64,000 nt of DNA from Candidatus Hermodarchaeota archaeon (GTDB lineage: Archaea; Asgardarchaeota; Hermodarchaeia; Hermodarchaeales; Hermodarchaeaceae): assembly GCA_016839805.1 (NCBI GenBank), contig JAEOTO010000031.1, forward strand, positions 62,001-126,000. The letters run 5' to 3'. The translations under genes and the position numbers were made by a program. The notes under the pieces are model-generated. The model saw only the letters and a list, made by a program, of their open reading frames with translations, made no database searches and was not told the origin of the DNA. This document shows positions 6,488-64,000 of this stretch, in pieces (positions within the stretch are counted from its first letter, which is position 1; each line of letters opens with the position of its first letter).

Positions 6488-7921
6488 TTAAAACGCTTCA
6501 AGATATTTGTGGATGTTCTTTGCAGCTTGCTTCCCTTCCCCCGCTGCTGCAATGACGGTGCCTTCTCCACCTGTTAGGTCACCTGCAGCCCACACATGAG
6601 GAATTGAGGTTTCAAGAGTATCTGGATTGACAATAACATCCCCCCACTTGTCACATTCAAGTTCGGGAGTGCAACGAGGGACTGATGGGTTGGCAGATGC
6701 ACCAATGGCAAAGATAACTGTGTCTACTGGAAATTCAAACTCAGAGCCTACAATCGCTTCAGGGCGACATCGACCACTCTCATCCGGTTCACCAAGACAG
6801 TTGCGAATACATCGCATGACTTGGACGCGACCTTGATTGTCACCAAAGAGTTCAAGTGGTTGGGTCAGGAATTTAAAATCCACGCCCTCCTCTTGAGCGT
6901 GGCGATATTCCTCACGGCGAACGGGCATTTCATTTTCTGAGCGACGATACACAATATACACTGTCTTCGCACCCAATCGCAAGGCAGTTCGTGCACTATC
7001 CATGGCGGCATTTCCGCCACCAATCACTGCAACGACTTTTCCACGGATAATTGGAGTATCAAACTCAGGAAATTGGTAAGCCCGCATAAGATTTACTCGC
7101 GTAAGGAATTCATTGCTACTGTAGGTTCCAACGAGATTGACTCCAGGAATCCTGAGAAAGGTGGGAAGACCGGCACCTGAGGCAAGGAGAATTGCATCAA
7201 AACCGTGAGTGAAAAGATCTTCAAGGGAATAGAGTTGTCCAATGAAAGCGTTAAGTTGAAACTCGACTCCGAGCTGTTTAAGATAATCTACTTCAGCTTT
7301 GACGATAGCTTTGGGAAGCCGAAACTCAGGGATACCGTAGACAAGAACCCCACCAGGTTCATGCAGACTCTCGAAAACTGTGACTTGATGGCCTAAGAGC
7401 GCTAAATCACCGGCAGCGGTAAGCCCTGCGGGTCCGCTCCCTACGATGGCTACCCGGTAACCTGTCGGTTTAGGTAATTTTGGAACTTCCACACCATGTT
7501 CACGTTCCCAATCAGCAAGGAACCGCTCAATTCGACCAATCTCGATTGGATTCCCCTTCTTACTTAGAATACAACCTGCCTGACATTGAATTTCTTGCGG
7601 GCATACCCGTCCACAGATTGCGGGCAAACTATTTTTCTCTTTAATAATACGAATTGCTCCACGATAATCGCGATCCCGCACCGCTTCCAGAAATCGGTTA
7701 ATCTCAATTTCAACAGGACAACCATCAACACATTTTGGAGTCTTACATGCCATGCAGCGTTCAGCTTCATGGAGGATTTGCTCTTCGGTATATCCCAAAT
7801 TGACTTCATCAAAGTTCTTAATGCGTACTTGGGGGTCTTGAGCGGGCATCTTAGGTGCGGGGATTGTCCAAGGTTGTGGTGTACTCTTCTTAGGTGTTTC
7901 CTTGGTTTGCTTGTCTGCCAT
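6488..7921 (-). CDS. gltA: GltA/NfnL-type NAD(P)H flavoprotein (glutamate synthase small subunit family)
   Basis: A 477-residue FAD-dependent oxidoreductase. Residues about 50-110 hold two cysteine clusters (CMACKTPKCVDGCP and CGRVCPQEIQCQAGC) that ligate [4Fe-4S] centres. Then come an FAD dinucleotide fold (VAIVGSGPAGLTAAGDLA), an NADPH-binding fold (VAVIGGGNAAMDSARTALRLG) and the C-terminal GDLTGGEGTVIAAAGEGK FAD motif. This family supplies NADPH electrons to glutamate synthase, or serves as NfnL/SudA in electron-bifurcating ferredoxin:NAD(P) oxidoreductases. No large glutamate synthase subunit is in the window, but an NfnS/SudB-like protein lies at 14061-14897 on the same strand, so the Nfn role is plausible. 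It is the last gene of the minus-strand sugar/AOR block. Confidence 0.9.
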   Translation of the reverse strand: MADKQTKETPKKSTPQPWTIPAPKMPAQDPQVRIKNFDEVNLGYTEEQILHEAERCMACKTPKCVDGCPVEIEINRFLEAVRDRDYRGAIRIIKEKNSLPAICGRVCPQEIQCQAGCILSKKGNPIEIGRIERFLADWEREHGVEVPKLPKPTGYRVAIVGSGPAGLTAAGDLALLGHQVTVFESLHEPGGVLVYGIPEFRLPKAIVKAEVDYLKQLGVEFQLNAFIGQLYSLEDLFTHGFDAILLASGAGLPTFLRIPGVNLVGTYSSNEFLTRVNLMRAYQFPEFDTPIIRGKVVAVIGGGNAAMDSARTALRLGAKTVYIVYRRSENEMPVRREEYRHAQEEGVDFKFLTQPLELFGDNQGRVQVMRCIRNCLGEPDESGRCRPEAIVGSEFEFPVDTVIFAIGASANPSVPRCTPELECDKWGDVIVNPDTLETSIPHVWAAGDLTGGEGTVIAAAGEGKQAAKNIHKYLEAF

Positions 7922-8023
7922 AACTTAACCTTCATGAAATTCCTTACTGACATCGAGGGTGCACAGACTCTCGGATTAAAGCGTTCCGCTAATTCAGCCT
8001 CGTATGTCAGATATAGATTCCTT

Positions 8024-9874
8024 TCACCAGAGGTCCTTCGCAACATCGTTTAGATCGAGTTGATGGAGCACTTCGCGTGTTGGTTTCCCAGTTTGTGGAT
8101 CCCATTGACTAGATACATAGAATTCTTTGAGTTGGTCAGGAAGATTCGGAGTTTTTCCCTCATTGGGTCCCTGGGTAAATGGTTTTAGTATACCGCTAGG
8201 TAGTTGGTCATCTTGGGCGGTGATACCGCACCGGATGTTGAAAGCACGTTTTAGTGTCATGGTCCGTTGACCAATTTTGAGGAGTTGAAGTGGCGTTAAC
8301 TCCCGTCCAGTAGTGGTGTTGTATAGAGCTGTAACAAGGGAGGGTTCGAGAAGAGCTAATTGACATATTAAAAGTGAATTGAAGAGGGTTCGCCAGTTTC
8401 GCATTGTAGCTACAGCCTTACCCTGTCCTTCGTTGGTGTGACGATCACCTGGTTCAAGGTCAAATTCTGGAACACTGACACCCATTTCTATCGTATGGAT
8501 GTCTCCTTGCATGTGATGTGCTCCAATAGGTGATACGGCATATGCAGCAGCAAGGCCGTAGAAGGCGCGGGGATCATGCATGGGAACCTCAAGCCCTTTA
8601 ACATGGACTGCTAGCTCCGGTATTCCAAGTCGATCTCCAGCCCGTTCCACGCCTTCAGCTAGAAGATCTCCGAGTCCTTCTCGTTTTGCGATCATCTCAA
8701 TGAGGGTAACTACCGTTTGGGCATCACTGAATTTCAGATTCAAGGAACCAACGAATTCTTTGGCTAGCTTGCCTTGTTCGTGGGCAGCAAAGCTAAAGGC
8801 GATTACATTACCGCATGAAATAGTATCGAGGCCATACAGGTTACAAAGATGGTTAGCTAGACATAATGAGGGTAAATCGTCAACCTGACAAAGTGTCCCG
8901 AGAGCGCCAATGGTTTCGTATTCGGGACCAGCAACATCTTTTAACGAGATCGAGTCTGTCTCAACTGATACTATTGGACCGCAGCCGATTGGACAAAGAT
9001 GACACCGGAACTGCCCCGATCGATATTCTTTGAGGGCAAGGGCATTGATTTTCGAAATATCCATGAATGGTTCAGTGAAATATCGGACCGGCATATCGTT
9101 GAAAAGGTTCATTAGCATATCAGCGCCATACAATGTCCCATTCGCACCCAAAATGGGAGCCAGCCCTTCAAGCAATTGAAATGCACTTCTTACATGTTCA
9201 CGGAATGCCTTAATATCAGCTAGTTCAGGTTTTTGTGACCCTCGAACTGCTATAGCTTTGAGTTGCTTAGCCCCCAAAATGGCACCTGCACCTGCTCGAG
9301 CACTCGCCCGTCCTTTATCATTCATAATAGCTGCGAATCGGACTCGATTTTCACCTGCCTGACCTATGGATAAGACACGAACCTTCTTGTCTGCAAGGTC
9401 TTTTTTGATGATTTTTTCTGTTTCAAAGGTATCTTGACCCCAAAGGTGGTCAGCAGGTTTTATCTTGGCAGTATCATCTTGAATTGTTAGATACACCGGG
9501 GATTGTGCAGAGCCTGTAATGAGGATCCCATCAAGCCCAGCCTGCCGTAGTTCAGCTCCGAAGTATCCTCCGCCTGTCGATTCACCCCAAATTCCAGTGA
9601 GGGCTGATTTTGTGCATATAGCATGACGGCCGGTACAAGGGGCTCCAGTGGCAGTAAGTGGTCCTGTGAATATAGCGATTTCGTTTTTAGGGTGGAGGGC
9701 ATCGAGGGTCTCAATCTTTAGACGGTCATATAGTAGTCGAGTAGCGTAGCCAGCTCCACCAATGAAATCCCGTGCATAGTCCCAATTAAGGGGCTTACGT
9801 TGGGTAATACCCTTGGTCAAATCAACGAAAAGAAATTCACCCATATACCCGTTCAGGGTGGGCACAATTATCAC
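8024..9874 (-). CDS. Aldehyde:ferredoxin oxidoreductase (tungsten-type AOR family)
   Basis: A 616-residue AOR-family enzyme that oxidises aldehydes to acids with ferredoxin, using a bis-pterin tungsten cofactor and one [4Fe-4S] cluster. The N-terminus GYMGEFLFVDLTKG is typical. Cluster ligands are C291, C294 and C298 in CHLCPIGC plus a distal cysteine about residue 510 in SLLICQLALL. The pterin-binding ASARAGAGAILG segment is about residues 191-201. The start is GTG at 9874, overlapping the aldolase stop as GTGA, which argues for translational coupling. The upstream kinase and aldolase suggest that the substrate is an aldehyde released by sugar-phosphate cleavage such as lactaldehyde or glycolaldehyde; that is inference. 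Confidence 0.92.
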   Translation of the reverse strand: MIIVPTLNGYMGEFLFVDLTKGITQRKPLNWDYARDFIGGAGYATRLLYDRLKIETLDALHPKNEIAIFTGPLTATGAPCTGRHAICTKSALTGIWGESTGGGYFGAELRQAGLDGILITGSAQSPVYLTIQDDTAKIKPADHLWGQDTFETEKIIKKDLADKKVRVLSIGQAGENRVRFAAIMNDKGRASARAGAGAILGAKQLKAIAVRGSQKPELADIKAFREHVRSAFQLLEGLAPILGANGTLYGADMLMNLFNDMPVRYFTEPFMDISKINALALKEYRSGQFRCHLCPIGCGPIVSVETDSISLKDVAGPEYETIGALGTLCQVDDLPSLCLANHLCNLYGLDTISCGNVIAFSFAAHEQGKLAKEFVGSLNLKFSDAQTVVTLIEMIAKREGLGDLLAEGVERAGDRLGIPELAVHVKGLEVPMHDPRAFYGLAAAYAVSPIGAHHMQGDIHTIEMGVSVPEFDLEPGDRHTNEGQGKAVATMRNWRTLFNSLLICQLALLEPSLVTALYNTTTGRELTPLQLLKIGQRTMTLKRAFNIRCGITAQDDQLPSGILKPFTQGPNEGKTPNLPDQLKEFYVSSQWDPQTGKPTREVLHQLDLNDVAKDLW

Positions 9875-53927: not shown

Positions 53928-56900
53928 ATGCGGGTCTCTAACTCGTGCAAGTACGCGATAATATTAGCCATCATTATATTCCTTACAATTCCATTAACAT
54001 CGTTTAATGGCACCATGTTCTTAAACAACACTACTGATTTGGCTTCAACAAATTTAAACATGAGAAGAGCGCCGATTCTACCAGGACCCGATTTAGGCAT
54101 ATCCAATTGGACCTCCAATCGATTTCAGAACCCAGAGTTCGAAGATTGGACTACTCCAACTGAATGTGACGGATGGGATAAGGTTACTAGTCCGGATCGC
54201 TTCCACTGGGCGGCACAAACCCCATATCCGGTAAATGAAGGAACCTACTCAGGTGGAGTGCAGATCAGAGATACAACTGCCACAGCAGACCTAAAACTGA
54301 TGCAAAACTCCATTGGTGCAGATATGTCAAATCTTAGCCTCTCCTTTGATTGGTACTTAGATCAGGTTAGCGATCCCTCTGTGGATTTCCTAAGACTTGA
54401 AATTATAATCGTGGATACTGGACCAGGTCCTGATTACAATATCTATTATTACCTAAATGATACCGCCGTTGGATTTTTCAATCAGACCCTCGTCGCTCAT
54501 TATATCATTAATGATCCACCCCATCAATGGAACCTCTTCAGTCGTAATATTACAGACGATTTTGTACAGGTTCCATCATTTCCTGGGTCAGTTTGGTCAT
54601 CGCTTGAAGTGGATGAAGTTAATATCTGGATGAGGGCCGCAGACCAGTCCACACAGTATGTTCGTGTTTTTATTGACGATATGCGATTGATCAATGCGAC
54701 CAATAACCATGGATGGGTTAACCAGACAATACGCAACGGTAACTTTGAGACCGGCGATCTAACTGATTGGAGTTTTGAATCGCCTAATACGAATCAAGGG
54801 TTTATAGAAAGTAGCACAACTGCGATTTCAGGAACTTTAAGTGCTAACGTCACAGCGAACTCGTTAGGGAATGAGAGCTTCGTTTATTTCCTCGATGCTC
54901 CAGAAGCTCGATTAACTAGTTTGAACCCAGGCATTATAAAGTTTCAATGGCATCTTGAACTTCAAAATCCCAACGAAAACACTCTGGCTTTAATTCATTT
55001 AAGGTGTCATGACGGAATTAGCAGTGTTCACATATATTATCTTCTGACATATTATATGGAAGTTAGTCCCTACCAAAATACGACAAATCAACTTGCTATT
55101 CACGTCGATAATTTCAACACCACAGGTAGCTGGAACTCCTTTGCACGTAACATATGGAACGACGCTATAGGGTCCTTTTCCGGAAACGAAGTTCACGTCG
55201 ATTTCTTTGAAATAGAAGTTCATGCCGAAGGGTACAATTCACAAACAGAACTCTTAATTGACCAATCCTCTCTCCGAGCGGCAGCAATTAATGGAGCTGG
55301 TTTCGAAGACCAACCCGCTGTAGGTTCACGCGTTCGGGGCTGGTATCGAACGTATTCAACTTTTCTTGTTACTGATGAAACACAAGCTGATGGTGGGCTT
55401 AAAGCAGCCAACTTGACGTTAGAAAGCGGATCCTTTAATCTCTATCAGACCATGCAATGGAGACCATTGAATGCTACACGGGAAACCTACTTAGATGTAA
55501 TGTGGAACATCAACGATACTGTAGCAGCGAATCAAGTTTGGTTCCGCCTTTCATTAAATGATGGAACCGAACTTAATTACTACATGAATGGACCAGCAGA
55601 GGGCTCCAACTCAAGTACGGAAGCCCACTTCAATGTCACCAGTTTTGGCACCACTGGTTCGTGGATTCAAATGCACCGTGATCTCAATCACGATTATGAA
55701 TCCGTTTTCGGTTCATTGCCCAATACCAGGATGGAAAGACTTTCCCTTCGAGCCGATACTGCAGGAGGTGGTCGACTAGAAATCCTTTTCGATGACTTAT
55801 ACATGTATGATGATCCTGCACCACGCATTACCAATGTTGCCCATGATCCTGTTAACCCTGGTATACTTCAAGATGTGAACGTGACCGCCGAAGTTGTGGA
55901 TCAAGACCTTACTCTTGTCGAACTGGATTATCGCGTCTATATTGGCAGTTGGAGTGGTTGGACGAATATCGAGATGGACTACTTAGCTGGTGATACATAT
56001 AATGCCACCATTCCGGGACAAGTATCAGGTGCAGTTGTCCAATATAATATCTCAGCGACGGATGCATGGGGATTGACAATTGTCTCCTTGGATAATGGCA
56101 ACCCGTGGAGTTATACAGTTGAAGATGTAGACCCACCAAGTATCAATAGTGTTGAGCAAGATCCTACAACAGTAAGGTACACCAATACAGTTGATGTCAC
56201 GGCAAATGTGACGGATGGGGGACTTGTTTCTAGTGTCAAGTTATTCTATACCACAAATGGATGGACAACCTCCGATAATTTCACAATGACTCATACTACC
56301 GGAGACCTTTTTGAAGCTACGATACCAATGCAGAGCTATGGGACCACAGTCCAATATTATATCAATGCCACTGATTCAGCAGATAATTGGACTGTTGATG
56401 ATAATGGGGGCAGTTATTACAGCTATACCGTCATTGATGACATAGATCCGGTTATAAGCGATGTAAGTCATTCTCCGGACCCTGTGGAATATGATGATTC
56501 ACCAATTACCATTACCTGCACTGTTTCCGATCCAGGAAGTGGAGTTGTCACAGTTACATTATATTACAGCACCGATGGATGGGCTTCCTCGAATCCCGTT
56601 ATCATGACAGGTACAGACACCTATACTGGAAATATTCCGGGTCCATATGCCACGGGAACAACTGTCTTGTATAACATCTCAGCCACTGATGGAGCAGGTA
56701 ATTCATTTCTCGATGACAATGGCGGGATTTCATACAGCTTCGCTGTTGAAGATAATACAGACCCACAAATTACTAATGTGGGTCATTCTCCAGATCCTGT
56801 GGAAGCTGATGATGTAGACGTGACCGTGAGTTGTGATGTTATAGACCCAGGTAGCGGAGTCAACACTGTCACTCTGTGGTACCGACTTGATGGGGGTACT

Positions 56901-59021
56901 TGGACCTTATTAGTAATGACACACACCACTGGTGACCAATATCAGGTTGATATTCCTGCCCAATCATTTGGAACTTTTGTCGAATATTATATTGTGGCAA
57001 CAGATAATGCAGCCAATAGTGCAACAGAGGACAATGGCGGCAGCTATTACAGTTATACTGTTACAGATGCGACACCACCATTGATTTCTAGTGTCAGTCA
57101 TACACCGACACCTGTTGAATACTCTGACAGCCCAGTAGTCGGGTGTGATGTCACGGACACTGGTAGTGGTGTCAACACAGTTATCCTCTACTACCGGGTG
57201 AACGGCGGTAGTTGGTTTCAAGTGATAATGGGCTACACCACAGGCGACCGCTATGAGGGGACTATCCCCATGCAGTCTTGGAATGACATCGTGCAGTTTT
57301 ATATCAATGCCACCGATAACATGGACAACTGGACTGTGGATGACGATGGCGGCAGCTATTATAGTTATACGGTTCAGGACAATACCGAACCCATTATCAA
57401 TAATATAGACCGAACTCCTAACAATGTTGAATACACCGATACTCCAGTAGTGAGTTGTGATGCTTCCGATGTGGGAAGTGACATCAATCAAGTCCGATTA
57501 CGATATCGAATCAATGGTGGTGCGTGGACATGGGTAACCATGACTCACACAACAGGTGACACCTATGAATACACGCTTTCCCTCTATGGCTATGACACGC
57601 TGGTTGAGTACTATTTTGAAGCCCGGGATAATGCCTTGAATGTCGCAATCGATGACAACGGTGGAAGTTACTACAGCTATCGTGTTGGTGACTACACCGA
57701 TCCAGGTATTAGCAATGTTGATCAGACACCCACCATTGTCGAGTACGATGATAGCCCTGTAGCAGGTTGTGATGTCACCGATGCAGGAAGCGGTATTAGC
57801 ACCGTCGTCTTATACTACCGCGTTGATGGCGCTGGATGGCTCCAAGTAGTGATGAGTCACACTGGAGGTGATCACTATGAAGCCTCGATACCCATCCAGA
57901 GTTGGAACAGCGATGTCGATTATTACGTGAACGCAACCGATGTCGCAGGGAACTGGGTAGTCGATGATGACGGGGGAGCTTACTACAGCTACACTGTCGT
58001 GGACAACACCGACCCCATAATCAGTGGCGTAAGTCACACTCCACTGGTCGTCACTCCCTTTGATCCTGCAGTGGTTGGGTGTGATGTATCCGAACTAGGT
58101 AGCGGAGTTAGTTCAGTCCAATTACATTATCGTGTCGACGGAGGCACTTGGATTATTGTTGTTATGAGTCATACCACTGGCGACCACTATGAAGGTACTA
58201 TTCCGGCGCAGGTATTGGACAGTTTCGTTGAATATTATGTCAATGCAACGGACAATGCTGCAAATAACGCTGTTGACGATAATGGTGGTACCTACTATAC
58301 CTATACGGTGGGTGATACAGTCTCGCCTGAAATTTCCAATGTAGGTCATTCTCCTTCACCTGTTGAGTATGATGATAGTCCAGTTGTAAGCTGTGATGTC
58401 GTTGATATCGGGAGTTCCATTGCAAGTGTAGTGTTAGCCTACAGGCTAGATGGAGGAGCATGGGCTTATGTCTCGATGACACACACCACTGGTGACCGCT
58501 ACGAATACACGCTTCCAATACTATCCCTGGGAACTTTGGTTGAGTATTTCATTAACGCGACCGACATCATGGATAATTGGATTGTGGATGACAATGGCGG
58601 CAGCTATTACAGTTATAGTGTGATTGATACCACGGACCCATCAGTGAGCATTACTTCACCTGATGCGGATGCCATTGTAGCTGGGTTAATCACTATTGCA
58701 ATGAGTGCCACGGATCCTGGTAGTGGAATCGCTCGAATCGAAATATTCGTAGATGGCACCGAAGTTGCTGAGCTCACAAGTCAACCGTTTAATTATTCGT
58801 GGAATACAATGCTGGTGCTGGATGGGGAGCATACTATTACAGTGACTGCGTATGACTATGCGGATAATCAAGCCACAGATTCGATTGATATTGTCGTTCT
58901 TAATTTCCCAACTTTTCCGTCACCCGTCCTAGTTTTTGCCTTCGTGGCAATAGTTCTCACTCTTGTGATTGCCCTCGTTGGTGTTCTCGTGTACAGGCGT
59001 CGAAGAAAAAAAACTAGCTGA
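53928..59021 (+). CDS. Giant repeat-containing surface protein (1697 aa)
   Basis: A 1697-residue exported protein: signal segment (residues about 10-28, AIILAIIIFLTIPLTSF), then three related modules of about 190 residues (starting near 40, 267 and 455; each with NPEFEDW, NGNFETG or GAGFEDQ and D-W-x-F motifs, resembling galactose-binding/CBM-like sandwiches), then nine Ig-like repeats of about 104 residues from residue 628 (hallmarks VEYDDSPVV, SCDV, GSGV, DDNGGSYYSYTV), a tenth Big_7-like module (about 1567-1660), a C-terminal membrane helix and the basic tail RRRRKK. Many N-x-S/T sequons suggest glycosylation. Likely an adhesin or S-layer component. Nothing enzymatic. Confidence 0.9.
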   Translation: MRVSNSCKYAIILAIIIFLTIPLTSFNGTMFLNNTTDLASTNLNMRRAPILPGPDLGISNWTSNRFQNPEFEDWTTPTECDGWDKVTSPDRFHWAAQTPYPVNEGTYSGGVQIRDTTATADLKLMQNSIGADMSNLSLSFDWYLDQVSDPSVDFLRLEIIIVDTGPGPDYNIYYYLNDTAVGFFNQTLVAHYIINDPPHQWNLFSRNITDDFVQVPSFPGSVWSSLEVDEVNIWMRAADQSTQYVRVFIDDMRLINATNNHGWVNQTIRNGNFETGDLTDWSFESPNTNQGFIESSTTAISGTLSANVTANSLGNESFVYFLDAPEARLTSLNPGIIKFQWHLELQNPNENTLALIHLRCHDGISSVHIYYLLTYYMEVSPYQNTTNQLAIHVDNFNTTGSWNSFARNIWNDAIGSFSGNEVHVDFFEIEVHAEGYNSQTELLIDQSSLRAAAINGAGFEDQPAVGSRVRGWYRTYSTFLVTDETQADGGLKAANLTLESGSFNLYQTMQWRPLNATRETYLDVMWNINDTVAANQVWFRLSLNDGTELNYYMNGPAEGSNSSTEAHFNVTSFGTTGSWIQMHRDLNHDYESVFGSLPNTRMERLSLRADTAGGGRLEILFDDLYMYDDPAPRITNVAHDPVNPGILQDVNVTAEVVDQDLTLVELDYRVYIGSWSGWTNIEMDYLAGDTYNATIPGQVSGAVVQYNISATDAWGLTIVSLDNGNPWSYTVEDVDPPSINSVEQDPTTVRYTNTVDVTANVTDGGLVSSVKLFYTTNGWTTSDNFTMTHTTGDLFEATIPMQSYGTTVQYYINATDSADNWTVDDNGGSYYSYTVIDDIDPVISDVSHSPDPVEYDDSPITITCTVSDPGSGVVTVTLYYSTDGWASSNPVIMTGTDTYTGNIPGPYATGTTVLYNISATDGAGNSFLDDNGGISYSFAVEDNTDPQITNVGHSPDPVEADDVDVTVSCDVIDPGSGVNTVTLWYRLDGGTWTLLVMTHTTGDQYQVDIPAQSFGTFVEYYIVATDNAANSATEDNGGSYYSYTVTDATPPLISSVSHTPTPVEYSDSPVVGCDVTDTGSGVNTVILYYRVNGGSWFQVIMGYTTGDRYEGTIPMQSWNDIVQFYINATDNMDNWTVDDDGGSYYSYTVQDNTEPIINNIDRTPNNVEYTDTPVVSCDASDVGSDINQVRLRYRINGGAWTWVTMTHTTGDTYEYTLSLYGYDTLVEYYFEARDNALNVAIDDNGGSYYSYRVGDYTDPGISNVDQTPTIVEYDDSPVAGCDVTDAGSGISTVVLYYRVDGAGWLQVVMSHTGGDHYEASIPIQSWNSDVDYYVNATDVAGNWVVDDDGGAYYSYTVVDNTDPIISGVSHTPLVVTPFDPAVVGCDVSELGSGVSSVQLHYRVDGGTWIIVVMSHTTGDHYEGTIPAQVLDSFVEYYVNATDNAANNAVDDNGGTYYTYTVGDTVSPEISNVGHSPSPVEYDDSPVVSCDVVDIGSSIASVVLAYRLDGGAWAYVSMTHTTGDRYEYTLPILSLGTLVEYFINATDIMDNWIVDDNGGSYYSYSVIDTTDPSVSITSPDADAIVAGLITIAMSATDPGSGIARIEIFVDGTEVAELTSQPFNYSWNTMLVLDGEHTITVTAYDYADNQATDSIDIVVLNFPTFPSPVLVFAFVAIVLTLVIALVGVLVYRRRRKKTS
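55811..58630 (+). repeat. Nine tandem about 312-bp repeats (Ig-like modules)
   Basis: Module boundaries are near 55811, 56124, 56436, 56751, 57067, 57378, 57690, 58001, 58314 and 58626, spaced 311-316 bp. Each encodes a domain ending in a GGSYYSYTV-like strand. The later copies are more alike than the first two, suggesting recent duplications. Confidence 0.85.
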
Positions 59022-59079: not shown

Positions 59080-60933
59080 CTAAAACTTGAAGCCTTTCAC
59101 TTGTGTACGAGTCGATTCAATTATTTGACGTGTGTGTACAAGCTGCCAAATCCGGTTGATATCTTGATGCACTAAGAAGTCGTGGGATAACCGATCCTTG
59201 CTTGTTTTATTCCGTTCGGTGTATCGGGGAACGACTTTTCTAATAACGTCATATGTAATTTGTGAACCAAGCCCGAGGGTTATGGGTTTTCCTAATCTGC
59301 GGATATCGATTCCTTGGATGGCACAGAGCAATTCGATGGCAATGATATGTTCCACATTGGATACGATTTCACGTGCTTGTCTGGCGGAGATTGTGCCCAT
59401 GCTGACATGATCTTCCTGGTTGGCTGCCGTGGGAATAGAGGTAATACTTGCCGGTGTGCAGAGGGTCTGACATTCAGCCAAGAGAGCCGCCGCAGTGATG
59501 TGAGCAAGACCTAGACCAAAATAGACTCCTTGATCTGCAAGTGTTGGATGCACTAGAAGAAGGGGAAGCCCATTACTCAGTTTATTATCGATTAATCTTG
59601 CGATGCGGCGTTCAGCAATGCTTGCAATACTAGTTATGGCGATACCAAGAAAGTCCATAGCCAAGGCAATTGGTTGACCGTGAAAGTTTCCTCCAGAAAG
59701 AAATGTCTTTGAGGTAGGAAAAATCAGTGGATTATCAGTTGCTGAATTCATCTCAATAGTAATGGTTTGTTCGGCAAATAAGATAGCATCTCGGACTGCA
59801 CCTAACACCTGGGGTGTACATCGGATTGAGTAGGCATCCTGTACACGCCGAGTTTTTTGAGCCATCTCGATAGCCGCATCAATCGCTTGAGGAGAAACAC
59901 CCAGTGTCTTAAGGTGTTTTATGACGCGATTTCGTTTTGCCTTCAAGAGATTTGCCGACTTTGGTGGTTCAACTGGTATTTGTTGATCGATTGCGAGAAT
60001 TGTGTGGATGGTTTCGCTCAGGATTGATTCTAAAGCTTCATGTTCTTCTTGGGAGTCCTGGGGAAGTGTGTCATGAAAGTGACTTGTTGCTTTTTCTGCT
60101 TCATCTGCACGTTGTTGAGAGGTTAGCACTTGTGTGCTTCCCGTGAGGAGCGAGGTGAGGTTTTGTGCTGTTTGTAGTTGTCCAGAATGTGGTCGTAATT
60201 GATTTATGCGCGGATCAAAGGCATCAAGAACTCCTTCGAGAGCTTCAATTGATAGGGCCGCAGCGATTTCCGCCGTTCCGAGAAGAGCTTTGGCATCGGA
60301 TATAGCTAGCGCGGCAAGTGCAGTCATAATTTGGGTGCCATTGATGAGTGCAATTCCCTCTTTGGCTTCTAATTGAATTGGTTTAAGACCCGCTCGTTTC
60401 AAAGCCTCTGCTCCAGGGAGGATTTCCCCATTATATTCGGCTTCTCCTTCACCAAGAAGAACTAGAACCATATGAGAGAGCGGGGCCAAGTCACCACTTG
60501 CACCCACAGAGCCCTTTTCGGGTATTATGGGGTGCACTCCGTTGTTAAGAAGGTCAACGAGGAGCTGTAATGTTGAGAGTTGAATTCCCGAATGTCCTTT
60601 TACCAGCGTATTAGCTCGAAGTAGCATGGCAGCGCGAACCACTTCTATGGGAAGTGGTGCCCCAACTCCAGCTGAGTGACTGATGATGAGGTTGTGTTGC
60701 AATTTTCGGGCTTTATCACTAGAGACAATAACTTCACTGAAGGGTCCAAAACCGGTTGTTACACCGTAAATAACCTCTCCAGATTCCATCCATTGTTGAA
60801 CTAGTTTTGCTGCTCTTTCAACTTTAACCTTAGCTTTGGGCGATATAGACACATTTCCTCCATTACGTGCTATGGTAACTAATTGCTCAATCGTAAGAGT
60901 TTCACCATCAAGTTCGATTTTTTTTCTGCTCAT
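59080..60933 (-). CDS. hutH: Histidine ammonia-lyase with a 90-residue insertion
   Basis: A 617-residue histidase (usually about 510). The MIO cofactor motif is present in KGSVGASGDLAPLSH, with YGVTTGFGPFS and SATDNPLIF. Between LTGSTQVLTSQ and RVQDAYSIRCTPQV (about residues 276-366 counted from the longest frame) there is an extra segment of about 90 residues, rich in Glu/His/Gln and lysine, absent from typical HutH. It deaminates histidine to urocanate. The start at 60933 has GGTGAAGAAG just upstream; ATG 60945 is also open. It lies about 9 kb from the other hut genes and on the opposite strand. Confidence 0.95.
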   Translation of the reverse strand: MSRKKIELDGETLTIEQLVTIARNGGNVSISPKAKVKVERAAKLVQQWMESGEVIYGVTTGFGPFSEVIVSSDKARKLQHNLIISHSAGVGAPLPIEVVRAAMLLRANTLVKGHSGIQLSTLQLLVDLLNNGVHPIIPEKGSVGASGDLAPLSHMVLVLLGEGEAEYNGEILPGAEALKRAGLKPIQLEAKEGIALINGTQIMTALAALAISDAKALLGTAEIAAALSIEALEGVLDAFDPRINQLRPHSGQLQTAQNLTSLLTGSTQVLTSQQRADEAEKATSHFHDTLPQDSQEEHEALESILSETIHTILAIDQQIPVEPPKSANLLKAKRNRVIKHLKTLGVSPQAIDAAIEMAQKTRRVQDAYSIRCTPQVLGAVRDAILFAEQTITIEMNSATDNPLIFPTSKTFLSGGNFHGQPIALAMDFLGIAITSIASIAERRIARLIDNKLSNGLPLLLVHPTLADQGVYFGLGLAHITAAALLAECQTLCTPASITSIPTAANQEDHVSMGTISARQAREIVSNVEHIIAIELLCAIQGIDIRRLGKPITLGLGSQITYDVIRKVVPRYTERNKTSKDRLSHDFLVHQDINRIWQLVHTRQIIESTRTQVKGFKF

Positions 60934-61063
60934 CTTCTTCACCATTTTGATACTGCTTGCCTTACATCACTAGGTAAAAAGGTTTCATCCTACAAGATTA
61001 TGGTCTTTTTAGTGATTAATTCTTCTTGAAGTAAAAAATAAGCGTTCCCTAGAAATAGGAGTA

Positions 61064-62680
61064 TTAGTTTTTCTTTTGGAGAGTGATCTCTATTTCGCTT
61101 ATTCCTCCCCATTTAGATTTTTTTCCTGTGGGGTAGTAAGTATCAATTTGTATAGCTTCTTCGTCCATTGTAAGATCGGGTTCATATTTAGTTCTCAGGA
61201 GTTCAGCAACATCCACAGCGCGGTAAATCAGTCGACCTCGGGCCTTAATTGTTACTGATTGATTTTTCTTTATTTGACTAATGCACGCCCAAACGTAGTC
61301 CATCAATCGTTTTTTCCCAACGAATATGACGTCTTTCAACCAAAATCGTTCGAGGAGTTGCTGATCACGAAGAGCTTCTTCTGTAGGAGTGGGTACTTTT
61401 TCTGAGACAGCCTTTGTGACAAGAGTTGGTTTTTCCTCTGGAAAAGGTTCTTGTGTTGGTATAGGGACTTTTCGTTCGATCTTTTCGATTCTAGGTAATG
61501 TTGAAAATCCAAGAATTTGTGGACTTACCATTTCCCCAATATCCATTGGAACAGCTTCATCTTCTTCTTGTTCGGGAATTGAAGGCGGCTTTTCAGGTTC
61601 TTTACTTTGGTATACATCGAGTTTCTTAATTTCTTGCTCAAGAGCTTCTAAAGTGAAGCGTTTCCTGGGCTGCCAACTGTCGATACGCTCAAGAATGGCT
61701 TGAATTAAATCTGGATTCTTTGTGAAAATTCCTGCCTCATCCCTAGAATTCCAACTCTCGGTTGTAAGATTTTGCGAGGAGATAATTGCTGCCTCTTTAT
61801 CGACAATTAGACAATTTGCATGTAAATTAGGACAAGATTCGATAAGTATCCGATTGGACAATAACATTTCAAGCGCTTCAGGATCTGATTGTTCATTCAC
61901 CCAGTGTTGCCAATCAACCCAAGTAATAAAACGAGCTTGAACTTCATCAGAGATTGTTTGTAAAATGACTTCCGCAACATCATTTGTAATATAGGGAGAT
62001 ACTAATAACACGAATTGCCGAGCGGAAGATAACAGGTCTATGACTAAATCATTTAGACCATTCGAGGTATTGATGAAGACACTTTTGCTATTTCGGGGTA
62101 AAACGGAGGAAAGAGAATACCTTTGTTTATCTTGAGGATAATCTGAATATTCATCAGTAAATGCCAGAAAATACGCCCTTGCCTCCTTCACGAGCTTTCT
62201 TTGCTTTGATACGATTACAAGATCACGGAGAGTTTTTAGATCCCTTGTTATGAAATTTGCTGAACCCACCGCAACTGCTTTCTCTGTTAACATCAATTTG
62301 AAATGAATCCTGGGTCGATTGGCAATCTCAACCTCTAAATTCTGAACTCCGGAAATACCTTTAACCTGCTCAGCATCTATTTTGCTTCCGAGAATTATCC
62401 GAAATCGAAGGTAGTCAGCAGCGTCATTAAGAAGGGCTGATACTAGCTTTTTCTCGATACGGGGAAAGGCGAGCCACAAATCTTTTTCTGCTAAGTCAAC
62501 CATTGAAGAATACTCAGGTCCAATAGCGTGCTCTGCTAAATATACCAGGGATTTTCGTTCCAACTCCTCAGGAACAGAAAGTATCATTTGTATAAATGGA
62601 ATGATTTCCTCCTTGAACTCCATAAATATCATGAGAATTACAGAACCAATGATTAGCGTCATGAAGATCGCGGGAAACAT
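61064..62680 (-). CDS. Membrane-anchored phospholipase D-like protein fused to a C-terminal Alba domain
   Basis: A 538-residue protein. Residues 1-22 are a hydrophobic anchor (FPAIFMTLIIGSVILMIFM). Residues about 45-180 and 195-330 are two PLD-like domains: motif 1 is H126-F-K128 with GSAN (139-142), motif 2 is H287-A-N289 with SSQN (301-304), so the lysine of the second HKD is replaced by asparagine and the motif-1 aspartate by glutamate. Residues 345-445 are a proline/glutamate-rich linker. Residues about 448-536 match Alba: DVIFVGKKRLMDYVWACISQ, IKARGRLIYRAVDVAELLRT and ISEIEITLQKK. Alba binds DNA or RNA, so the enzyme is probably held at the membrane and directed at nucleic acid; activity is unproven because of the degenerate second motif. 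Confidence 0.88.
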   Translation of the reverse strand: MFPAIFMTLIIGSVILMIFMEFKEEIIPFIQMILSVPEELERKSLVYLAEHAIGPEYSSMVDLAEKDLWLAFPRIEKKLVSALLNDAADYLRFRIILGSKIDAEQVKGISGVQNLEVEIANRPRIHFKLMLTEKAVAVGSANFITRDLKTLRDLVIVSKQRKLVKEARAYFLAFTDEYSDYPQDKQRYSLSSVLPRNSKSVFINTSNGLNDLVIDLLSSARQFVLLVSPYITNDVAEVILQTISDEVQARFITWVDWQHWVNEQSDPEALEMLLSNRILIESCPNLHANCLIVDKEAAIISSQNLTTESWNSRDEAGIFTKNPDLIQAILERIDSWQPRKRFTLEALEQEIKKLDVYQSKEPEKPPSIPEQEEDEAVPMDIGEMVSPQILGFSTLPRIEKIERKVPIPTQEPFPEEKPTLVTKAVSEKVPTPTEEALRDQQLLERFWLKDVIFVGKKRLMDYVWACISQIKKNQSVTIKARGRLIYRAVDVAELLRTKYEPDLTMDEEAIQIDTYYPTGKKSKWGGISEIEITLQKKN

Positions 62681-62830
62681 ATTTCGTAAGGTCTCCCAGT
62701 GGCTGGAAATTCAGACCCCATAAGGAAACATGTCATTTATTTATTTTTGGCAAAAATGTGACATTTGACCCACTTTTTCACTTCTTTCCATTTTTTGCTG
62801 TTTTTCGGAAAAAACGCCCAATGTCTTGCA

Positions 62831-64000
62831 TCATTCTTGGCGGAGGTAAGAATGGGCTGACCATCGAATGAGTATGAGGAGTAGCCCGAGAGTGTAAGGT
62901 ACAACAAGGAGAGAGCTAAGAAGCATAAACCCTACTCCTGCGGGAAGAAAGCCCGATTGAAAAATTAGGACAGGCATAATGGCAATCCATGACAGGATTG
63001 GGTAAGTGATCATGAGTGCGACAGGAATTTCATTTTTGGCTCGGCTACTGTGTGGATACCGACTACCAAGTGAAATCCCTATGGCTGTTGATATGAGAAT
63101 GGCGTGGGGGAGAATCGCAATGGCAACCGGGAATAGTTCCAGACTCCCTAAAACGACAGCAACGTAGATGGCAAACGGGATTGCAAGAAAAATGGGCGTA
63201 ACGAGAAGTTGAAGATATTTAGAAAAAGTAAACCAAAAAGGTGACAGTTCTGATAACCGGAGAAGATACAAAGTCCCACGTTCACCTTGGAACGGATCCG
63301 AGGCGTTGATCGCAAGAAGTGGAATAATTATAACGAGTAACAAAGCATACAACGTTTCCATTACAGGTAGAAACGAGGGAGGTAACGGAACCACGATATT
63401 CAAAGTGGGAAGCAAACTCGTCAAAGTCAATGCAGCGATGATATTTACAACAATTCCAAAAAGGTAGAACAGTTTCCCGGGTTTTCGCAACCCTGTGATG
63501 AGATCCTTTTTGAACACAGAACGCAAGGGGCTCTTGGCCTGTTCAAACGTGATGGGCAGTCCACTTAATGCTCCACGAGCAGTTCCACGGTGGCGCGTAA
63601 TGGCAGCAATTTCCTCATACATGTCAACAGTAATTCTATTAGTTAACCATCGTGTGATTAGCAGTATCAACAAATAAGCAATAAATAACCCTAAAAATAG
63701 CCAGGGAAGTGCAGGGACATGAAGGTAAGTGAAAGGTTCTATTGGGCCCCACCATGCAGGCAACAATCCCCTTAAAGGGAGACCACTAAATGCCAGAGCA
63801 ACGAATAAGTAAGCAAGATTGTACATCGGTGAAGGAATGACTATTCCACTCACCACCCAAAAAGGAGATATTATTAGGATAATACCAATTACCAAGACTA
63901 CATAAAACACAATCCGGTATATTCGTCGATAAGGTCGGGATTGTGATACAAATTTCCGTAATGCATACAAACCTTGGGCAGCGACAGCGCCAATCTCTGC
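62831..64000 (-). CDS. ABC-2-type permease-like membrane protein (cut by window edge)
   Basis: At least 389 residues with no stop up to the right edge; a TTG at 63970 is only an internal codon, and the frame remains open upstream (AEIGAVAAQG), so the N-terminus lies outside. About ten membrane helices. Features such as FKKDLITGLRKPGKLFYLFG and DPFQGERGTLYLLRLSELSP resemble ABC-2-type transporter permeases. It lies 150 bp upstream of the PLD-Alba gene on the same strand, so co-transcription is possible. No ATPase subunit is in the window. Confidence 0.7.
   Translation of the reverse strand, partial: AEIGAVAAQGLYALRKFVSQSRPYRRIYRIVFYVVLVIGIILIISPFWVVSGIVIPSPMYNLAYLFVALAFSGLPLRGLLPAWWGPIEPFTYLHVPALPWLFLGLFIAYLLILLITRWLTNRITVDMYEEIAAITRHRGTARGALSGLPITFEQAKSPLRSVFKKDLITGLRKPGKLFYLFGIVVNIIAALTLTSLLPTLNIVVPLPPSFLPVMETLYALLLVIIIPLLAINASDPFQGERGTLYLLRLSELSPFWFTFSKYLQLLVTPIFLAIPFAIYVAVVLGSLELFPVAIAILPHAILISTAIGISLGSRYPHSSRAKNEIPVALMITYPILSWIAIMPVLIFQSGFLPAGVGFMLLSSLLVVPYTLGLLLILIRWSAHSYLRQE

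Follow-up and report, generated by a model that had tools for sequence, protein, structure and literature searches.

A membrane-anchored twin-PLD protein fused to an Alba domain in one Asgard genus, a candidate tether between membrane and nucleic acid

How archaea, which have no nucleus, place their chromosome or RNA at the membrane is poorly known, and a gene near the end of the 64,000-nucleotide stretch of Candidatus Hermodarchaeota DNA analyzed here (the window) raises this question in a concrete form. It joins a predicted membrane anchor and a twin PLD body to Alba, which is normally a free protein of ~90 residues, and we asked what such a protein might do. As a link from membrane to Alba made by a single gene in an Asgard lineage, it is a concrete and testable candidate for such positioning. 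Its parts, all on the minus strand, are as follows.

61064-62680 (-): complete fusion gene, 538 aa (TM helix, PLD halves A and B, linker, Alba)
62618-62677 (-): predicted transmembrane anchor, residues 2-21 (hydropathy and model helix 3-21)
62126-62530 (-): PLD half-domain A, residues 51-185 (Pfam, model and Foldseek)
62255-62305 (-): first HKD motif, residues 126-142, HFK...GSAN
61661-62083 (-): PLD half-domain B, residues 200-340 (best Pfam stretch 213-334)
61769-61822 (-): second HKD motif, residues 287-304, HAN...SSQN
61343-61600 (-): disordered acidic Pro/Glu-rich linker, residues 361-446 (pLDDT and charge)
61067-61333 (-): Alba domain, residues 450-538 (Pfam, solved-structure sequences and model)

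The frame is uninterrupted from its ATG start through 538 codons to the stop. Pfam matches PLDc_2 in two stretches (E=3.8e-23, 82.2 bits against a cut-off of 27) and Alba (PF01918) at residues 451-503 (E=4.4e-13, 49.2 bits against a cut-off of 25). The AlphaFold2 model has an N-terminal helix at residues 3-21, two PLD-like lobes, of which lobe B is the more confidently predicted, disorder over residues ~362-448 and a C-terminal beta-alpha-beta-alpha-beta-beta unit, which is the Alba topology. A preliminary description of this DNA, made from the sequence alone, had given the same coordinates and strand and the same order of anchor, twin PLD body, disordered linker and C-terminal Alba, and the reading frame, Pfam and the model bear it out. 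The anchor segment has a Kyte-Doolittle 19-residue mean of 2.46 (2.61 and 2.52 in the two orthologs introduced below), and nowhere does the rest of the protein exceed 1.6. Across most of its length the linker has pLDDT values below 50, with a net charge of -9 to -19, and the net charge of the Alba domain is +5 to +11.

Eight genomes of the lineage were sampled, with that of the window designated G000. Full-length orthologs with all five parts are present in G004 (62% identical) and G003 (about 50% identical), giving three Hermodarchaeia genomes with the gene. The preliminary description had named a frameshift or an assembly join between two genes as grounds for rejecting its reading, and both are ruled out by the full-length orthologs in these two independent genomes. 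It had also proposed searching other Asgard genomes for the same architecture, and among 228 of them the PLD-Alba fusion was found in one genus only. Among the matches listed from a search over 393 archaeal genomes, none places Alba in a large frame, although distant PLD-Alba fusions of independent origin may exist, and contig scans for wider spread, with search patterns that reach close relatives only, returned the two known orthologs alone. We found no published work joining Alba with PLD, and the earlier statement that no described family has this composition holds as far as tested. The fusion of PLD, Alba and a membrane anchor is a new, rare and genus-restricted domain architecture assembled from known parts. 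SAMD9-type proteins also carry an "AlbA" domain within a large multidomain protein (PMC5445408), but this is AlbA_2, another Pfam family, and it is joined to Sir2-like and NTPase domains rather than to PLD or a membrane anchor.

For the PLD part, the only other strong match in the 228 Asgard genomes lies in G179 (E=1.6e-45), where both HKD motifs are intact and the C-terminus differs. The 73 other archaeal genomes sampled gave weak generic PLD matches but no close one. We considered and rejected a viral or plasmid origin; viral contigs and phage records yielded no relative, and a Rhizobium plasmid one weak PLD match. At the G179 locus (L026:12-2973) the PLD relative adjoins a LigD-type PrimPol gene and an open reading frame that by eye resembles a HerA-type ATPase, with no Pfam match; a short TM frame ahead of it overlaps the PLD frame in another frame and looks like a frameshift.

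The assignment of the C-terminus to Alba was made by sequence and is matched by the model. The sequences of 11 solved Alba structures match residues 450-536/537 with E-values down to 9.6e-14, and a profile built from the three orthologs likewise matches Albas only; the preliminary description had proposed a structural check of this region, and the modeled topology agrees with Alba. The 50 Foldseek matches listed for the whole model are all larger proteins, with the Alba unit not among them. Against the NCBIfam equivalog for DNA-binding protein Alba (TIGR00285) the fused domain scores 67.1 bits, below the cut-off of 88.25, and by its sequence it is a true Alba domain that differs from the standard free form. 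In Sso10b, Lys16, Arg44 and Arg83 are critical for DNA binding (PMC3325275). By alignment to AF1956, the first two correspond to K456 and R483 of the fusion protein. Arg83 presumably corresponds to K523, a mapping that also draws on the C-terminus of Sso10b. Both K456 and K523 are present in all three orthologs and R483 in two of them, with Gln in G004. The free Alba of the same genome (L054) has Ser at the 456 position and Asn at the 523 position. The fused domain shares with the Alba/Sac10b chromatin proteins a whole-domain match, the fold topology and largely the nucleic-acid-contact residues, but those are free proteins, whereas this one sits at the C-terminal end of a PLD protein with a membrane anchor and belongs to a clade of its own: the fused Albas form a fully supported group on a long branch, with the family's free Albas outside it. 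As an observation apart, the free Alba at L054:8937-9389 (-), the core of which lacks the key DNA-contact residues of Sso10b at two of three positions, has a Lys/Ala/Pro/Glu-rich N-terminal tail of ~60 residues that is reminiscent of histone H1 tails.

The twin-PLD body was examined for its catalytic state. In G000 the first motif reads H126-F-K128...GSAN, with Glu at the "D" position, and the second H287-A-N289...SSQN, confirming the Lys-to-Asn change reported in the preliminary description; this Asn replaces Lys in all three orthologs. H126, K128, N142, H287 and N304 are intact in both G000 and G004. The G003 motifs are H-F-N...SSAA and E-A-N...SSQN, so that this copy has also lost the first Lys (to Asn), the Asn of the first motif (to Ala) and the second His (to Glu). 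Two complete HxK...N motifs, the test applied for a catalytic PLD, are absent from all three proteins. The G003 frame nevertheless remains open, and the structure predicted for its product continues to match twin-PLD structures (3.9e-15). The corresponding comparison for the fusion protein of the window, which had also been proposed as a check, returned twin-PLD structures as well: a phospholipase D, vaccinia F13, PLD3/PLD4 and phosphatidylserine synthase, with E-values of 2.1e-16 for the PLD structure 7e0m and ~1e-14 for PLD3/PLD4.

We then compared the parts of the protein with one another. Identity to G004 and G003, respectively, is 83% and 62% for Alba, 75% and 65% for PLD-B and 47% and 36% for PLD-A, so that the most conserved part is Alba in the closest pair and PLD-B in the comparisons with G003; PLD-A, which bears the first catalytic motif, is the fastest evolving of the folded parts. 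Across the gene dN lies far below a saturated dS, and on this basis the fusion protein is, as judged from its sequences, under purifying selection. Given that motif residues have been lost, that the G003 fold is predicted to be intact, that conservation is highest in Alba and PLD-B and that dN is so far below saturated dS, we infer that what keeps the PLD fold in place is a binding or structural role and not standard PLD chemistry. It would be a rare archaeal case in which a PLD enzyme is seen losing its active site while a binding domain stays constrained. The same data bear on whether the gene is simply decaying and has no current role. The loss of catalytic residues would fit with this, as would a stop-bearing remnant in G002, but frames are open and full length in three diverged genomes, and in PLD-B and Alba synonymous change is saturated with non-synonymous change low, making decay improbable.

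The reading that we favor is that the fusion protein is a membrane-anchored tether for nucleic acid built on a degenerate PLD fold, to which we assign a probability of roughly 0.5. The single N-terminal helix would hold the protein in the membrane with the remainder probably in the cytoplasm. With Arg/Pro after the helix in two orthologs and no charge ahead of it, the sequence fits an N-out/C-in topology, a fit that depends on few charges. The twin-PLD body, lacking normal HKD chemistry, may serve as a folded scaffold or as a platform that binds phosphodiesters or nucleic acid; the long, acidic and flexible linker would give the C-terminal Alba reach to DNA or RNA; and Alba, as its family suggests, would bind either without sequence specificity, probably as a dimer, the net effect being that DNA or RNA is held near the membrane. 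This reading is favored by the sequences and models, with the second Lys-to-Asn change fixed in all three orthologs and with G003 having lost more catalytic residues yet kept the frame, the predicted fold and Alba. The FAM83 pseudo-PLD domains, in which a PLD fold with degenerate HKD residues acts as an anchor (PMC6008594), offer a precedent, but these are vertebrate proteins with one pseudo-motif that anchor a kinase and are without Alba. Membership of the Alba family is no guarantee of nucleic-acid binding, as Mth10b binds neither DNA nor RNA (PMC3097224), and this counts against a tether, as does the dispensability of the gene described below. The fuller version, a dedicated tether from membrane to chromatin or RNA that evolved in one Asgard genus when a degenerated membrane PLD nuclease was joined to Alba, is put forward more tentatively.

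The main competitor among the three functions that the preliminary description had considered is a nuclease, or a phosphodiesterase acting on nucleic acid, that is anchored in the membrane and has an altered active site; Alba would feed or position DNA or RNA for it, and only the G003 copy would be degenerate. The named families nearest in sequence to the PLD part are the nuclease-like defense PLDs and nucleases DrmC, DpdK and NucT, but the scores lie far under the curated cut-offs (30.9 bits against 133 for the DrmC equivalog of DISARM, 25.1 against 100 for that of DpdK), and those families are without the TM-Alba architecture. Membership of a defense system was rejected, as the family similarity is weak, and no partner defense genes occur among the neighbors read. 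The membrane-anchored exonucleases PLD3/PLD4 resemble the fusion protein in having one TM helix at the N-terminus with a twin-PLD body after it, as well as in the structural match, but they are eukaryotic, lumenal/lysosomal and without Alba, are ~12% identical to it and have intact HKD motifs, which it does not. Human PLD3 loses its exonuclease activity when Lys418 of the second motif is mutated, and Asn432 of that motif is likewise indispensable (PMC10783504); the Lys equivalent to Lys418 is gone in all three orthologs. Since G000 and G004 keep the two His, the first Lys and the Asn of either motif, weak or altered catalysis is possible, and the intact motifs of the G179 relative beside its PrimPol gene point the same way. 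The extensive loss in G003 with its frame kept, and the rapid evolution of PLD-A, argue against an enzyme, and we consider a nuclease possible but doubtful. A lipid enzyme, either a phosphatidyl-transferase or a phospholipase with Alba coupling the state of the membrane lipids to chromatin, would suit the anchor and the lipid PLD and phosphatidylserine synthase among the structural neighbors, but the nearest sequence families are nuclease-like, the active site is degenerate and in NCBIfam the protein matches neither a cardiolipin synthase nor a phosphatidylserine synthase. It is accordingly the least supported of the three and very unlikely, whereas a pseudo-enzyme tether gained from the fixed Asn and from the G003 motif losses.

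Turning from the protein to its locus, we assessed whether the neighboring genes point to a partner.

62831-64000 (-): ABC-2-like permease, running past the window end; neighbor, outside the fusion system
59080-60945 (-): histidine/aromatic ammonia-lyase family gene; conserved downstream neighbor, outside the fusion system
62695-62709 (-): TTTCCAGC(N3)TGGG element in the leader just ahead of the start codon; a similar stretch occurs in the leader of each ortholog

The order on the same strand is P-type ATPase, small Rho_N-like/TM protein, ABC ATPase, ABC-2 permease, fusion gene and ammonia-lyase gene. The preliminary description had taken the permease as adding a membrane context, and had asked whether it is conserved beside the fusion. 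It is indeed adjacent and on the same strand in both G000 and G004, as an accessory subunit of the transporter would be, but the permease block and the ammonia-lyase gene are also kept in four genomes that are without an intact fusion gene (G002 and G005-G007). Since the rest of the block persists in this way, adjacency is weak evidence for partnership; the adjacency is confirmed, and the membrane context drawn from it is not supported. The ~150 nucleotides before the fusion gene contain, by eye, T-runs and a TATA-like stretch, which suggests from the sequence that the gene has its own promoter. The ABC-2 permease is probably not a partner, and we regard a transporter subunit as highly improbable. 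The TTTCCAGC(N3)TGGG element has a single match within the window.

Between its permease and ammonia-lyase genes G002 has no more than a fragment of the Alba tail, interrupted by two stops (E=3.3e-8), which is the scar of a gene loss, and the sister genus (G005-G007) retains the block but lacks the fusion gene. Lost in one genome and absent from a neighboring genus, the gene is therefore dispensable.

Several other genes were noted in passing. The gene at L050:6351-6833 (-), upstream of the ABC ATPase and found in both genera, encodes a 160-aa protein with a weakly Rho_N-like N-terminus (0.01) and several apparent TM segments, and 53928-59021 (+) in the window encodes a protein of 1697 aa, predicted to be secreted or on the surface, in which Ig-like units are repeated and the C-terminus carries a hydrophobic segment. 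At L055:5876-6811 and 6892-8337 (-), a PLD-domain protein with what by eye is a helical MIT-like N-terminal region adjoins an ATPase weakly similar to CedD (3.4e-6), and PLD matches in frames sized like this PLD gene occur in other genomes of the family.
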